Translations under genes and position numbers: made by a program
The notes under the pieces: model-generated
The model's database searches: none
Seen by the model: only the letters and a program-made list of their open reading frames with translations
Told to the model about the DNA's origin: nothing
In this document: positions 5,345 through 10,152 of the stretch, one piece after another
Layout: every line of letters starts with the position of its first letter
How positions within the stretch are numbered: the first letter of the stretch is position 1
Origin: a bacterium
GTDB taxonomy: Bacteria; Patescibacteria; Paceibacteria; UBA9973; UBA2103
Direction of reading: 5' to 3'
NCBI GenBank assembly: GCA_021812925.1
Contig: JAKAMK010000020.1
Coordinates: 1 to 10,159, forward strand
Length of the DNA stretch: 10,159 nt

Positions 5345-6883
5345 TTAGAGGTCCGTACCCGAGTAGGAGAGGCTGAGGCTCTTATTGCAGAGCGGGAAAT
5401 CGGGGACGATGTTGCCTGGGCCTATCTCGCCGAAGAGTGGCCAGTTCGAGAACGACGGATCGCTTATAGCGAGACGCTCGATGGTGCCGCCCTCGCCGAT
5501 ACGTACGAAATCCATGATGGTGCCGCGGAAACTTTCCGCCCAGCCGAGCGCTTCGCCCGCTTTTGCAGTAACTTTCACGACCGTCTCCCCTGCTGGAAGA
5601 TCCGCAAGCACCGCGCGGATGAGACGGAGCGATTCAGCGACTTCGCGCGTACGCACTCGGAAGCGCGCAGCGACGTCGCCTGCGCTCTCGGTGACGATCT
5701 GAGGCGCGAAATCTGCATATGCTGCATAGGGGTGGTCGAGGCGCGCGTCGAGCGCGACGCCCGAGGCACGCGCCGCGATTCCGCGCGCGCCGTAGGCGCG
5801 CGCGGCCTCCGCACTAAGCACTCCGGTAGTCTCGAAACGCTCCATGAGGCCGTCGCTTCCGAACGCGATGTCGAGAATCGCCTCGAGCTCACGCTCGCTC
5901 TTCGCAAGCTGCGCGAGGAGCTCTTCCGCTCCACGCACGCTCACATCGTGCGCGCCACCGAGTACGACCGCGCCACGGAGATACCGGTGGCCGACGAGCG
6001 TCTCGAACGTGCGGCGCAATTCCTCAAGCATGCGGAAACCCTGTGCGGCCATGAACGAGAAGCCGGTGCCGTTGCCGGCCATGTTGCCGATGTCGAAGAG
6101 GTGCGCACCCACGCGCTCGAGCTCGTTCCAGAAAACCCGGAGCCGCTTCGCGCGCTCGGTAATCTTCGTACCCGTCGCGCGCTCCACTGCTTCCGCGTAC
6201 GCGAGCGTGTGGCCCACGACCATGTCTCCCGACACGCGCTCTGCAAATGCGAACGCCTCCTCGGGCGTCTTCCCCTCGACGAGCTTCTCGACGCCCTTGT
6301 GCTTGAAAAAGAGTTTGCCTTCGAGCGTGAGGATGCGCTCGCCGCGCACATTGAAACGGAAATGCCCGGGTTCGATAATGCCAGCGTGTATAGGCCCGAC
6401 CGGAATCTCGTACACGCCCTGGCCGGCGACCGCGTGCATGGGGTACGGCTCGTTCGCGTGCGTGAGCTTCGTGTCCCACGCGAAGTCCTTGCGCAAGGGG
6501 TACATCTCGGCCGGGATATTCTCGTGATGCTCAAGACGACGCCAGTCAGGATGCCCTTCCGCTTTGACACCGAACTGATCAGACATGAGACGCTCGAACC
6601 AATGCGCCGCCATCACCGTGCGCGTGAGCGATGGGTACGACGGTGCATCGGCGGAGAGCACCGAGCGAAGCGTCAGGAACCCATCACCCGGGACCGAGAA
6701 GACTGCATGCACCGCGAAGCCCCCCGCAGCCTGCGTGCGCTCGTCGGTCGCATACATGAGCGCGAGTGGCGCGCCTAGGGCTACTGCACGCGTCGAAAGC
6801 GACGCGAGCTCGACTGCCGGCACCTCTATTGGCGCAGCCGCGTACGCGAGCCCGAGTTCATTGCAAAGCGTTTCGATAGTCAT
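5345..6883 (-). CDS. hyfG: Group 4 [NiFe]-hydrogenase/complex I-type large subunit (HyfG/HycE, NuoCD-like) lacking the Ni-binding cysteines (Ehr type)
   Basis: The 512-residue large subunit of a membrane-bound complex, on the cytoplasmic side. Residues 1-140 form a NuoC/30-kDa-like domain ending in AEMYPLRKDF. Residues 150-512 are the NuoD/HycE-like domain with IPVGPIHAGIIEPGHFRF (160-177), KLFFKHKGVEKL (190-201) and NELERVGAHLFDIGNMAGN (253-271). In true hydrogenases the L1 motif is RxCGxCxxxH and the L2 motif is CxxC near the end. Here L1 reads R216-V-S-G-D-M-V-V-G-H225 and L2 reads S506-Y-S-G-T-D511, so all four nickel ligands are replaced. The protein also stops right after L2, with no extension for a maturation endopeptidase. 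This matches energy-converting-hydrogenase-related (Ehr) subunits; H2 chemistry is therefore unlikely and the substrate is unknown. It starts 12 bases after the hyfF stop without a Shine-Dalgarno and is the last gene of the operon. The symbol marks homology to HyfG, not hydrogenase activity; ehrL might be more apt. Confidence 0.93.
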   Translation of the reverse strand: MTIETLCNELGLAYAAAPIEVPAVELASLSTRAVALGAPLALMYATDERTQAAGGFAVHAVFSVPGDGFLTLRSVLSADAPSYPSLTRTVMAAHWFERLMSDQFGVKAEGHPDWRRLEHHENIPAEMYPLRKDFAWDTKLTHANEPYPMHAVAGQGVYEIPVGPIHAGIIEPGHFRFNVRGERILTLEGKLFFKHKGVEKLVEGKTPEEAFAFAERVSGDMVVGHTLAYAEAVERATGTKITERAKRLRVFWNELERVGAHLFDIGNMAGNGTGFSFMAAQGFRMLEELRRTFETLVGHRYLRGAVVLGGAHDVSVRGAEELLAQLAKSERELEAILDIAFGSDGLMERFETTGVLSAEAARAYGARGIAARASGVALDARLDHPYAAYADFAPQIVTESAGDVAARFRVRTREVAESLRLIRAVLADLPAGETVVKVTAKAGEALGWAESFRGTIMDFVRIGEGGTIERLAISDPSFSNWPLFGEIGPGNIVPDFPLCNKSLSLSYSGTDL

Positions 6884-6895
6884 AGCAAAAAAGAA

Positions 6896-8371
6896 TTAGA
6901 GGATGGATGCCGCGACGTGCGCGATGACGGGGAATGCGGTGCCTGCGAAGAGCGCGGCGCCGAAGCAGACGATGAGGAGCGCGTGGAGCGCCATCGCCGC
7001 GTGGGCGCTGTTCCAGCGTTCAGGCTCGATCGCGTGCTCTACCGCGGCCGTCTCGCGCGCGAACAGGAACGGGAAGAATGCCTTCGCGAAGCCGATGAAG
7101 ACGAGCACGAGCGCGAAGAGCACCGGTACGACGAGGAGCGGATGGAGCGCAAGCGCGTTGCCCGCGAGCAGGAGTTCGCTCATGAATAAGGGCGAAGGCG
7201 GTACGGCAAGCAGCATGAGGAGGCCGATGAGGAAGAAGCCTGCGGTGTACGGAAGCGCTCGGACGACTCCGCGCACGCGGTCGAACTTCGTGCTCTTGAA
7301 AGAGAGCAGGATATTCCCCGCCCCGAAGAAGAGCATCGGCTTCGCGAGCGTATGGCCTATGAGGTGGATGAGCGCGATTATCGCGCCCGGTGCGCCGAGA
7401 CCGAGCGCGAATGTCGTGAGACCCATGTGCTCGATAGACGAGTACGCGAGGAGGCGCTTGTAGTCTGCCTGCACGAGGATGAAAAGCGCCGATACGAAAG
7501 TCGTGAGCGCGCCGAACGAGAGCAGGAGCGTCGCGGTGTAGGAGGAGCCGCCGAGCGAGAGGTCGGTGAGGCCCTTGAAGCGCAGGACGGCGAAGAGCGC
7601 GGTCGTGAGCAGGATGCCCGAGAGCATGCCGGAGATGGGCGACGGCGCGCTCGAGTGCGCGTCTGGGAGCCACGCGTGCATCGGCACGAGGCCGACCTTC
7701 GTACCGTAGCCGACCACGATGAACGCGAACGACAGGCGCATGAGCGCGCTCGGGAGCGTATGCGCCGCGGCGAGCAGGTTCGAAAAACTGAGTGCGGAGA
7801 TACCGGTAAGACCGCCTGCGGACGCAGCCGCGTAGGTAAGCACGACACCCATGAGTCCGAGCGCGATACCGGTCGAGCAGAGGATGAGGTACTTCCAGGC
7901 CGCCTCGAGCGCGCCCGGTCGCTGGTAGAACGCGACCAAGAGCGCGGTCGTGAGCGTCGTCGCCTCGAGCGCGACCCACATGAGCCCAAGGTTGTCGGAG
8001 ACGACGACCACGAGCATGGAGAGCACGAAGAGCGCGGCGAGCGAGCCGTAGTGCCGCGCCTGGGAAGGCGTCACGACGCCTTCATGCCCTTCTTCCGAGA
8101 GGTAGGACACGCTCGAGAGTGCCGCCGTCCATCCGACGAACGTGATGAGAAGGACAAGTAGCCCCGCAAGCGGGTCGAGGTACCAGAGACCGCCCGCGAC
8201 CATAGGCGCGCTCGTGAGCGCCGGAAGACCGACGAGAAGCCCGAGCAAAAACACGACCGAGCTGCCGAGAAACGAGAGCAGTGCGGCACCGCGCACCGTG
8301 CGCGCGTAAAACGGCACGAGGGCGGCGAGGAGGGCTGCACTGATGAGGTAGGTTGTGTACATGGAACTCAT
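6896..8371 (-). CDS. hyfF: HyfF-like antiporter subunit (NuoL/M/N family) of the Ehr/hydrogenase-4-like complex
   Basis: A polytopic membrane protein (491 residues, about 13-14 hydrophobic segments) homologous to Mrp-type cation/proton antiporters and complex I NuoM/NuoN; it is expected to move H+ or Na+ across the membrane. Hallmarks seen: E136 in MWVALEATTL (the TM5 glutamate), K225 in YGTKVGLVPMHAWLPDAH, the SPISGMLSGILLTTALF segment (244-260), K305 in QADYKRLLAYSSIEHMG, and H336/H340 with K344 in IHLIGHTLAKPMLFFGAGNIL. The ion-translocating charges are thus retained although the partner large subunit lost its Ni site. The length is close to HyfF (about 525). Two ATGs are possible, 8371 (used here) and 8362; the first is inside the left arm of the inverted-repeat element and the second begins one base outside it. 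An in-frame TTG at 8401 is rejected. There is no Shine-Dalgarno at any of them. Confidence 0.93.
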   Translation of the reverse strand: MSSMYTTYLISAALLAALVPFYARTVRGAALLSFLGSSVVFLLGLLVGLPALTSAPMVAGGLWYLDPLAGLLVLLITFVGWTAALSSVSYLSEEGHEGVVTPSQARHYGSLAALFVLSMLVVVVSDNLGLMWVALEATTLTTALLVAFYQRPGALEAAWKYLILCSTGIALGLMGVVLTYAAASAGGLTGISALSFSNLLAAAHTLPSALMRLSFAFIVVGYGTKVGLVPMHAWLPDAHSSAPSPISGMLSGILLTTALFAVLRFKGLTDLSLGGSSYTATLLLSFGALTTFVSALFILVQADYKRLLAYSSIEHMGLTTFALGLGAPGAIIALIHLIGHTLAKPMLFFGAGNILLSFKSTKFDRVRGVVRALPYTAGFFLIGLLMLLAVPPSPLFMSELLLAGNALALHPLLVVPVLFALVLVFIGFAKAFFPFLFARETAAVEHAIEPERWNSAHAAMALHALLIVCFGAALFAGTAFPVIAHVAASIL

Positions 8372-8382
8372 TTCGAAAATAA
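8363..8382 (+). repeat. Left 20-bp terminal inverted repeat
   Basis: Reads GGAACTCATTTCGAAAATAA on the + strand, the exact reverse complement of 8534-8553. It includes the 8-base palindrome TTTCGAAA. On the operon strand it contains the candidate hyfF start ATG at 8371. Confidence 0.95.
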
Positions 8383-8528
8383 TGGCGAGCGGAAACGGCA
8401 AAAACCCGTCGCGAGGGTCAATGAGGGCGTTTTGGCGTACTCGAAGTACGACAAGGCGGCCGAAGCAGGGCCGCAGCAGGGTTTTTGCCGTTTACGCTGC
8501 CAAGCATTTGGATGGTCGTGCATACTAG
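8382..8528 (+). CDS. Possible 48-residue basic small ORF inside the inverted-repeat element
   Basis: An ATG at 8382, on the last base of the left repeat, opens 48 codons ending in TAG five bases before the right repeat, antisense to the operon. The peptide is strongly basic (about a dozen Arg/Lys, for example SMRAFWRTRSTTRRPKQGR) with an aromatic-containing tail FAVYAAKHLDGRAY. It has no Shine-Dalgarno. Because the same bases form a nested inverted repeat and two hairpins, the open frame may be a by-product of GC-rich structured sequence. It is listed because it fits the element boundaries so closely. Confidence 0.2.
   Translation: MASGNGKNPSRGSMRAFWRTRSTTRRPKQGRSRVFAVYAAKHLDGRAY
8384..8501. 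repeat. Nested inner inverted repeat with two central hairpins
   Basis: AAACGGCAAAAACCC (8393-8407) is the exact reverse complement of 8479-8493. The pairing extends outward to 8384 and 8501 with one mismatch and one bulge. Within the 71-base interior lie a 6-bp stem with a CGA loop (8436-8450) and a 6-bp GC stem with a 7-base loop (8456-8474). Together with the outer repeats this predicts a long branched fold of either strand. Confidence 0.85.
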
Positions 8529-8533
8529 TGCGG

Positions 8534-8553
8534 TTATTTTCGAAATGAGTTCC
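8534..8553 (-). repeat. Right 20-bp terminal inverted repeat
   Basis: Reads TTATTTTCGAAATGAGTTCC on the + strand, perfectly complementary to the left arm at 8363-8382. It begins one base after the hyfE stop codon on the operon strand. Confidence 0.95.
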
Positions 8554-8554
8554 C

Positions 8555-9199
8555 TTAGCCGATGAGTTCGTTCAGGAATTCGGTCTCGAGAGACGCATGC
8601 TCGCGATGCGCACGACGCGCAAATGCGAGCACGAGCACGAAGAGTACCGAGAGGTCGAACAGGATGCCGAGCTCGACTAGGAGCGGCATGCCTCCCGTGA
8701 GCGCGAGCCCGAGCGTGAAGACGCCGTTCTCGACCACGAGGAAGCCTGCGGCGAGCCCGACCATGTCCTTGCGCGACACGAGCATGATGAACCCTATAAA
8801 GAGGAGCGCTATCGAGGACGCGAGCACGACATGGGAGACGCCCGAGAGCGCCACGGTGCGCGCGATGTAGCCTGCGAAGAAGATGGCGAGGAGCGAGGCA
8901 AAGGCGAGCGTCGTCGGGCGCAAAAATGACGCGAGACGCTCGCTCATGCCGTGTGCGCGCACGGTCTCGACGAGCCAACGCGGGATGAGGCCTCCCTTGA
9001 GCACGAGGATGACCGCCGCGACTGCGTACGCCGCGAGGTCGTGGTGCACCGCCGCGAAAAGCGCGACGGCGACAGCGAGCAGGACGCCCTGGAGCGAGTA
9101 GAGCGTGAAGAGCGTCTTCAGGCGCATGCGGCTCGCCATGAGGAAGGCGGTCACGGCCATCCCGGCAACGCACGTCTGCATGAGGAAAGTGAGTTCCAT
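8555..9199 (-). CDS. hyfE: HyfE-like membrane subunit (NuoK-related) of the Ehr/hydrogenase-4-like complex
   Basis: A 214-residue integral membrane protein, practically the same length as E. coli HyfE (216). About seven hydrophobic segments are visible; the C-terminal half carries the NuoK-like part. Conserved points: LYSLQGVLLAVAV (33-45), the cytoplasmic amphipathic stretch LKGGLIPRWLVETVR (67-81), the membrane glutamate E157 in VVENGVF, and E176 in PLLVELGILFDL. Buried glutamates of this kind are part of the proton path between the large subunit and the antiporter subunits in complex I and its relatives. The ATG at 9199 is chosen because the upstream in-frame extension to 9370 lies wholly inside hyfC and is not hydrophobic. 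It starts 11 bases after the hyfC stop, without a Shine-Dalgarno, and is followed by the inverted-repeat element. Confidence 0.92.
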   Translation of the reverse strand: MELTFLMQTCVAGMAVTAFLMASRMRLKTLFTLYSLQGVLLAVAVALFAAVHHDLAAYAVAAVILVLKGGLIPRWLVETVRAHGMSERLASFLRPTTLAFASLLAIFFAGYIARTVALSGVSHVVLASSIALLFIGFIMLVSRKDMVGLAAGFLVVENGVFTLGLALTGGMPLLVELGILFDLSVLFVLVLAFARRAHREHASLETEFLNELIG

Positions 9200-9210: not shown

Positions 9211-10152
9211 TTATATGAAGATGCGCATGAGCACGAGCGCGAAGCCGACGAGCGCCACGATGAGCGCGAGCGAGAGGTACTCCTGCATGCGATAGAAGCG
9301 CATCTTCACGATGGTCGACTCGATGAGCGCCACGAGGAACGCGGCGAGCACGAAGCGCACGACGAACCACACGACCGTCGCAATAAGCGAGAACGCGCCC
9401 GCATGCACGAGCCCGAACGGCAAGACGAGCGCCATGAGGAAGAGGCCGAGCACGGTCAGTTTCACCGCCGAGGCGAACTCGAGGAGCGCGAGGTATGGCC
9501 CAGAGTACTCGAGCACCATCGCTTCGTGCACCATCGTGAGCTCAAGGTGCGTCGCCGGGTTGTCGACCGGATACCGCGCGTTCTCCGCGAGCGTGACGAG
9601 GAGTAGTGCGACGAGCGCGAGAATGAGCGGGAGCACGGTCACGTGCCACGAGCCGCTCGCGAGGTGGCCGACGATCGCGTCGAGGCTCCATACGCCCGAG
9701 GCCGCCGCGATGGTCGCGAGGCTCACATAGAGCGCCGGCTCGACCAAGGCAGCAATAGTCATCTCACGGGAGGCACCCATGTTGCCGAAGGTGCTCGCCG
9801 TATCCATGCCGCCCATGACGAGGAACGCGGAGCCGAGCGCCATGACGCCTCCCACGAGGAAGAGGTTCGAGAGCGCGTCGGGGATGACGCCGAACGCAAG
9901 CGAAGGGATAGCGAACGCGAGGAAGACCGCGGTCGCAGCGACCACGAACGGCACGAGTCGGAACACCCACGAGCTGTAGCGGGAGATGGTCATCTCCTTC
10001 TTGAACAACGAGAGGAGCGCGAAGTACGGCAGGAACGGAGACGCGCCCTTGCGATTCTGGAAACGCGCTTTCATGGTGCGCACGAGCCCGAGCATAAAGG
10101 GCGCGAGGAGGAGCGTAAGGACACCCTGAACGAGGAAAAGGGCCGTGTTCAT
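9211..10152 (-). CDS. hyfC: HyfC/HycD-like membrane subunit (NuoH homologue) of the Ehr/hydrogenase-4-like complex
   Basis: A 313-residue polytopic membrane protein at the junction between the peripheral redox arm and the ion-pumping arm, homologous to complex I NuoH and formate hydrogenlyase HycD. Diagnostic segments: the first transmembrane helix followed by VRTMKARFQNRKGASPFLP (24-42), LFKKEM (49-54), MDTASTFGNMGASREMT with LVEPALY (116-142), and DNPATHLELTMVHEAMVLEYSG (197-218), which in this family lines the quinone-like cavity and proton path with several Glu/His residues. About eight hydrophobic segments are present and the length is normal for the family. The ATG at 10152 is preceded by only 7 bases of window, so upstream genes (probably a HyfB/NuoL-like and a small subunit) cannot be seen. 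Confidence 0.94.
   Translation of the reverse strand: MNTALFLVQGVLTLLLAPFMLGLVRTMKARFQNRKGASPFLPYFALLSLFKKEMTISRYSSWVFRLVPFVVAATAVFLAFAIPSLAFGVIPDALSNLFLVGGVMALGSAFLVMGGMDTASTFGNMGASREMTIAALVEPALYVSLATIAAASGVWSLDAIVGHLASGSWHVTVLPLILALVALLLVTLAENARYPVDNPATHLELTMVHEAMVLEYSGPYLALLEFASAVKLTVLGLFLMALVLPFGLVHAGAFSLIATVVWFVVRFVLAAFLVALIESTIVKMRFYRMQEYLSLALIVALVGFALVLMRIFI

Follow-up and report, generated by a model that had tools for sequence, protein, structure and literature searches.

Transposons of the IS630 family duplicate a TA at their target, those of the IS5 family/PIF-Harbinger prefer TNA/TWA targets, and intervening sequences are a known kind of insertion in bacterial 23S rRNA genes. The bacterial MITEs RUP, Correia/NEMIS, and ERIC are about 100 to 200 bp in size, have terminal inverted repeats with TA at the termini, and are associated with a target duplication; they form a long stable stem-loop when transcribed and are occasionally fused in frame to genes, according to the accessible part of one review (PMC2229807), which also reports the proposal that RUP uses an IS630 transposase. 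Harbinger-related elements are described with duplications of 0, 2, or 3 bp in the accessible part of PMC12730594. The sequence compared here with these systems is a 191-bp element (8363 to 8553, minus strand, read in the direction of the hyf operon) located between hyfE and hyfF on a 10,159-nt stretch of patescibacterial DNA (hereafter the window).

The element is delimited by a perfect 20-bp inverted repeat, with the left terminal repeat at 8534 to 8553 and the right at 8363 to 8382 (both minus strand), which on the operon strand form the 5′ and 3′ arms, respectively, of an outer stem (P1). By a simple calculation with uniform composition, 2.8 × 10−6 such repeats within 300 bp are expected in 10,159 random bases. 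Between the arms on the same strand are (i) a side loop, P2 (8504 to 8531), which is closed by two covarying pairs and varies in sequence and length among copies; (ii) the inner stem P3, with its 5′ strand at 8480 to 8502 and its 3′ strand at 8383 to 8406; and (iii) a small apical hairpin (8436 to 8450), which reads CGTACTTCGAGTACG on the operon strand and corresponds in position to hairpin P5 of an alignment of 28 copies. A nested perfect 15-bp repeat (8393 to 8407 and 8479 to 8493), which the 5′ strand of P3 overlaps, is included in a 31-nt arm pair (8377 to 8407 and 8479 to 8509) that is 81% complementary. On the minus (coding) strand, the hyfE stop codon TAA (8557 to 8555) is followed by a single base (8554) and then by the element, which ends 0 bases from the hyfF ATG (8362 to 8360). 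Both inverted repeats, as well as the full occupation of the spacer from one base after the hyfE stop to the hyfF ATG, had been claimed in the preliminary description and were confirmed.

The genes around the element are on the minus strand, and the hyf names are used by similarity because the matches are below curated cut-offs. The upstream gene (8555 to 9199; start codon approximate) is hyfE-like, for a hydrogenase 4 membrane subunit, and the downstream gene (6896 to 8362) is hyfF-like, encodes 488 aa, and has a start ATG that abuts the element; a NuoH-like gene (9211 to 10152) and a NuoCD/HyfG-like gene (5345 to 6883) are also present. The right arm of the element contains an ATG (8370 to 8368) in frame with hyfF, reading MSS-MYTT..., and the hyfF start may thus lie three codons earlier, inside the right arm, in which case HyfF would be longer by three residues. 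Two database proteins, P0001 and P0002 (78% identical), start at the MYTT methionine, directly after the element, which would therefore be situated after the upstream stop and before the probable native start of hyfF. NiFe hydrogenases have paired cysteines at two large-subunit motifs; at these places the HyfG/NuoCD-like large subunit has ERVSGDMVVGH and DPSFSNWP. With the paired cysteines replaced, the complex encoded in the window may be an Ehr-like relative instead of a hydrogenase.

Related sequences were detected in other Patescibacteria by BLAST, by a covariance model, and by a terminal-repeat pattern, and all three revealed dispersed copies. The best BLAST match of the window element was in genome G046 (78% identity over element positions 2 to 190, 189 bases, E-value 3.4 × 10−36), which has four long copies (one of these, L091, without its left end) as well as short deleted pieces; further matches were at 76% and 74% identity in G005 and 72% in G056. 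A plain nucleotide search found the element in 3 of 105 genomes of the family of G005. The covariance model (R1), built from nine copies, was run on 397 genomes of the order and identified 39 with copies, including the centre genome G046, with a best E-value outside G046 of about 5 × 10−26, and had matches in 2 of 379 genomes of a phylum-wide sample, one of which was the centre genome G500. Because the window was itself among the nine sequences used in training, its score with the model carries no weight as evidence, unlike the BLAST matches; the per-genome copy numbers from the 397-genome search are lower bounds, as at most six candidates were scored in each genome. The terminal-repeat pattern had matches in 10 of 14 genomes, and the reversed-pattern control had none in all 14. 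Each full copy yields two matches, and the highest numbers were found in G500 (15 + 21, total 36), G635 (15 + 12, total 27), G515 (13 + 7, total 20), and G733 (7 + 9, total 16); the sequence around 20 of the end-pattern places was examined. From 106 model matches, 83 copies were used for the analysis of flanks, frames, orientation, and strand folding, with the other 23 being opposite-strand echoes, matches cut by the end of a locus, short or weak second copies, and L091 with its missing left end. The 83 copies are 159 to 241 bp in length (median 186). As far as the samples reach, the family looks to be mainly within one order; viral contigs had no exact match to the two terminal sequences, phages had only two short weak matches (36 bases, E-value 0.6), and plasmids had none.

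Short forms were also detected. Four copies of 74 to 75 bp in G500 consist of the outer stem and side loop only; in three of them, which lie at different places, the loop is near-identical and the deletion junction is shared, and the fourth combines this junction with a different loop. The occurrence of this short form at different places indicates that the short form itself has spread, and the terminal repeats therefore seem to be enough for spread. Other repeats were observed in these genomes as well. In G002, the end GAACTCATTTCA was found at eleven places, six of which have both ends exact, a size of about 90 to 120 bp, and a different interior. Elements of about 150 to 160 bp in G184 (L179 and L180) have the same GAACTCATTTCAA ends and another interior, and the L180 element provides ATGAGTTCT in frame to the start of a DNA polymerase I-like gene (named by eye). 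Additional insertions are present in some G515 copies (L274, L275, and L246), including a kind that contains GTCGACAGGGATATTGTCGACACC-like units. Another hairpin repeat, about 100 to 120 bp long with the ends ATCCCGTTAGA, was observed in G782 (L297 to L322), where it accounts for 8 of the 40 strongest inverted repeats in 338 kb, and the same stretch has further palindromic elements.

The flanks of the copies were examined for direct repeats. An exact 3-bp direct repeat flanks 28 of the 83 copies (16 TAA, 8 TTA, and one each of TCA, TGA, AAA, and ATT), compared with a mean of 8.2 and a maximum of 19 in 10,000 random re-pairings of the flanks. Among 17 element pairs found by the terminal pattern alone (one of which, L284, is the same copy as L224), 14 have identical 3-base flanks, a number reached in 19 of 10,000 shuffles. 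A two-base match was found at 23 of the 83 copies and was TA in 20 of these; a TA repeat is less telling because it is palindromic and could as well belong to a longer inverted repeat. At 33 of the 83 copies there is no repeat of either 2 or 3 bp, and no direct repeat was seen at the window copy, whose flanks are AGG and CAT.

Sites that lack the element were found as well. In five of five relatives (L001 to L004 and L072), the distance from the hyfE stop to the hyfF start is −4 to 13 nt and the element is absent; these are the closest genomes with DNA, with HyfF only 50% to 59% identical. Judged from these junctions, the element was presumably no part of the ancestral hyfE-hyfF junction. An additional empty site is provided by the 23S rRNA genes. 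Two copies, L206:1501-1685 in G782 and L215:1501-1684 in G747, lie at different positions inside bacterial 23S rRNA genes, and the corresponding site in G747 lacks the G782 copy, with junction bases that differ too much for a duplication to be read. The strand that folds better is, in both copies, the strand present in the rRNA. Such a 23S rRNA match was found for only 2 of the 83 copies. To judge from these two insertions, transcripts apparently tolerate the hairpin. In L206, the end of the rRNA match is also overlapped by a group I intron match, and a different insertion of about 120 nt is present where L215 has its element.

Overall, the family displays the features of a MITE: its members are short, are without a supported coding frame, have terminal inverted repeats, and are dispersed in many copies (as counted in the related genomes rather than in the window's own), and a target duplication is found at the family level (28 of 83 and 14 of 17) though not at the window copy. 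We therefore consider it highly probable that the 191-bp sequence belongs to a patescibacterial family of MITE-like mobile elements that are non-autonomous.

Folding of the element was examined on both strands, and in each case the structure was far more stable than that of shuffled sequence. The predicted RNA fold was −84.2 kcal/mol (z-score −9.2) for the minus strand and −99.6 kcal/mol (z-score −9.9) for the plus strand, and the minus strand with DNA parameters had a z-score of −10.0; 0 of 200 shuffles were as stable in any of the three runs. The fold shared by the copies is composed of the outer stem P1, the side loop P2, the inner stems P3 and P4, and the small hairpin P5, and thus extends beyond a simple palindrome. 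In the nine-copy alignment, 20 of 48 pairs were doubly changed with pairing kept, as were 32 of 57 pairs in the 28-copy alignment (A4), which was hand-picked from the 83 copies as alignable with the GAGCC type and includes some copies that start with GAACC. Double-change cells numbered 47 versus 12.7 in shuffles for the nine copies and 169 versus 46.1 for the 28 copies (0 of 500 shuffles as high in either case). When the pairing partner was slid by 1 to 3 columns these counts were at most 10 and 36, respectively, a comparison that favors the proposed structure because the structure was derived from the same alignments. By a weaker measure, further pair types in the 28 copies numbered 61 versus 56.2, with 20 of 500 shuffles as high, and all of these statistics rest on copies that are related to one another. 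Within the 28 copies, 95.6% of P1 cells were paired and P5 had a G-U pair in 21 copies. Differences between arms were likewise matched: two copies in G005 have differing arms, each of which matches or nearly matches its own partner, and several arm versions were found by the terminal-repeat pattern among the copies of G500. The copies thus have in common one multi-helix hairpin fold that is kept by compensatory changes in the ends and the interior alike. The extension of compensatory change from the ends into the multi-helix interior was unexpected, as a passive MITE needs no conserved interior fold, and this finding counts against a simple MITE reading.

These paired changes are most directly read as selection acting on a folded single strand, and the copying of arms in replication could contribute. 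An account of the fold only, which is compatible with a mobile element, is that the paired changes arose by template switching across the palindrome during replication and not by selection; we regard this as possible but rather doubtful. In agreement with this account, there is no preference for mismatches that the operon strand would read as G-T wobbles: stems P1 to P4 of A4 had 10 G-T and 37 A-C mismatch cells (with A-C being G-T on the other strand), and A2 had 5 and 8, respectively. However, the excess of A-C over G-T could equally reflect selection on the opposite strand. Furthermore, the asymmetric parts of the structure (the one-sided P2 loop, the internal loops, and P5) are conserved, which argues against a pure perfecting of the palindrome, as this would erase them. 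The evidence as to strand is split. Over all 83 copies there were 82 G-T and 132 A-C mismatch cells, with A-C in excess in 47 copies, G-T in 17, and ties in 19, and the reverse strand was the better-folding strand in 78 of the 83; the mismatches of P5 (24 G-T and 8 A-C in the 28 copies) point opposite to this better-folding strand. For the window copy, composition accounts for most of the gap in stability between the strands (z-scores of −9.2 and −9.9). Tentatively, the asymmetric interior may itself be selected, either as a folded single strand during movement or as a transcribed hairpin that has a function in trans or folds out to protect the host transcript, rRNA included.

A less favorable case can be made for a cis-acting structured RNA that is maintained for its regulation of hyfF, whether through translation, stability, or processing. 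The very stable fold on both strands and the compensatory changes across the whole of it would agree with such a role, as would the finding that an ATG in the right arm opens a downstream frame of 123 to 503 codons in 11 of 36 copies (the window, L084, L090, L177, L198, L201, L202, L217, L231, L249, and L263), compared with 6 of 42 for an outward ATG in the left arm (98 to 449 codons). Some of the arm-started frames are RpiB-like, PyrH-like, or ABC-transporter-like, as named by eye, and such frames fit the insertion of an element into the short gaps of compact genomes. Arguing against a regulatory role, the element is missing from the junction of all five relatives, and its copies adjoin different genes, two of them being inside 23S rRNA genes. 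Same-direction neighbors numbered 26 in forward and 18 in reverse orientation (P = 0.29), based on crude longest-ORF gene calls by which the neighbor of the window element itself was mis-called. No Rfam family matched at threshold: the best score in window positions 8200 to 8700 was 20.1 bits against a threshold of 41.4, and in eight loci with copies the only match was a tRNA elsewhere in L179. The covarying structure expected of a regulatory RNA is present, but in copies from many sites and not from the hyfE-hyfF site, and we judge regulation of hyfF to be improbable as the reason for the element's presence. The preliminary description had proposed either a MITE-like element or a structured RNA that partitions expression within the operon. 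Mobility is borne out by the dispersed copies, flank repeats, and empty sites, and structure by the compensatory changes; the partitioning of expression is not supported, as the element is not conserved at this junction, has differing neighbors, and displays no orientation bias by the crude gene calls. Thus, both alternatives were partly right, in that the element is mobile and its fold is conserved, and other copies and covariation, whose joint lack had been named as counting against either alternative, were both found.

Transposases that might move the element were sought among carrier genomes by use of PF13358, PF01609, PF13359, and the exact end pattern. The IS630-type domain PF13358 was found in 0 of 7 and 2 of 40 carrier genomes, the DDE_Tnp_1-type domain PF01609 in 4 of 23 genomes, and the DDE_Tnp_4-type domain PF13359 in 3 of 44. 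None of the IS630, IS5-like, and IS982-like transposases was a matching partner among the six loci with readable ends (L264, L265, L268, L269, L271, and L295), where other ends are present. No autonomous partner with the same ends was detected among the carrier genomes searched, which are incomplete and in which ends were readable at these six transposase loci. Among the matches listed for the 14 genomes searched by exact end pattern, a single inverted pair 0.7 to 3 kb apart was found, spanning 912 bp in G515 (L274); within it, two elements, one of them short and degenerate at its right end, flank a coiled-coil-like frame, and no transposase frame was seen. At L266, an IS982-like gene was observed at the contig end beside a short stretch that resembles a remnant of the element.

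Also considered was a REPIN-like element, mobilized as a single-stranded hairpin by a Y1 transposase of the RAYT type. Y1 transposases were present in seven of seven genomes tested, a RAYT-like gene of G005 is 302 bp from a copy that is the strongest inverted repeat nearby, and the only detected copy in G056 is about 1.3 kb from a RAYT-like gene, with a GAPDH-like frame between. However, the expectation that the ends of the element are the palindromes flanking the RAYT gene failed: three of the four RAYT-like genes, those of G056, G002, and G046, are flanked by short palindromes of their own that are unrelated to the element ends, and near the G005 gene only the element copy, at 302 bp, was seen. 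In addition, no copy was detected within 10 kb of the RAYT-like genes of G046 and G002. To our knowledge, flanking direct repeats are not expected of REPINs, and the family has them. Overall, this route is very improbable. The RAYT-like genes at L126, L127, and L131, in three genomes, were each observed with different flanking short palindromes, pointing to what may be separate REP families in Patescibacteria. Least credible of all is a micro-protein frame within the element (in the window copy, 51 codons that end at an ATGA overlapping a hyfF start): similar readings were seen by eye in the window, G005 (L084), and G056 copies, and an ATG precedes one open frame in 13 of 26 GAG-type copies, yet no single frame is preferred, with the three frames open in 29, 25, and 27 of 50 GAA-type copies (with an ATG in 12, 8, and 6) and in 3, 22, and 20 of the GAG-type copies (with an ATG in 1, 4, and 13), where two frames are equally open and the copies closely related (7 of the 83 copies were without an anchor), and the candidate found no support.

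In the MITE-like reading, a transposase supplied in trans would have used the terminal repeats to insert the element into the gap of a few bases between hyfE and hyfF in this lineage. In the transcript of the hyf operon, the element would form a protruding hairpin that brings the hyfE stop and the hyfF ATG together at its base, and with the coding sequences on both sides intact the insertion would be tolerated. Any effects on the translation of hyfF or on message stability would likely be side effects and not its purpose. These findings show that small non-autonomous DNA has spread in the small, compact genomes of Patescibacteria, with copies in a tenth of the 397 genomes of one order and about 20 or more in at least one genome, based on the 15 and 21 end matches of G500. 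With paired changes in ends and interior, it becomes possible to test directly if selection acts on MITE hairpins, and on which of the two strands. The copies that lie within 23S rRNA genes or abut start codons show how insertions of this kind survive in essential or operonic genes.

When compared with the described systems, the family is most readily set beside RUP, Correia/NEMIS, and ERIC, with which it shares size, ends, TA, duplication, stem-loop, and in-frame fusions, as far as these are covered in the accessible part of PMC2229807; a mainly intergenic position, roughly checked here, is a further likeness. Unlike these MITEs, to which our searches found no sequence link, the family includes a class with 3-bp duplications (TTA/TAA), and its multi-helix interior is kept by compensatory change across an order. 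In the main text of two reviews, as far as accessible, the word "compensatory" (PMC2229807 and PMC10969869) and the word "covariation" (PMC10969869) are absent. The 2- to 3-bp duplications fit the IS5 family/PIF-Harbinger, again within the accessible part of PMC12730594; however, the element has no transposase gene, and the readable DDE_Tnp_4 locus (L271) has unrelated terminal repeats. An IS630-like element of G782 has an end, TAGAACGTTCTTAAAATAA, that faintly resembles TAGAACCCATCTCAAAAATAA, a resemblance that needs a gap, is AT-rich, and serves as a lead only, while PF13358 is limited to the 2 of 40 genomes noted above. As with REPIN/RAYT systems, hairpin repeats are dispersed in genomes that carry Y1 transposases; the ends, the flanking direct repeats, and the separate palindromes of most RAYT-like genes set the family apart. 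The two 23S rRNA copies resemble intervening sequences in being hairpin insertions in bacterial 23S rRNA genes, but only these 2 of the 83 copies had such a match. In the accessible literature on Patescibacteria, CPR, Parcubacteria, and structured MITEs, in which subscription journals are thinly covered, no such element is recognized, and as far as these sources go (PMC2229807, PMC3196728, PMC12730594, and PMC10969869) the family is a new one among MITEs. Its distinguishing features are the conserved multi-helix interior and the two copies in 23S rRNA genes.
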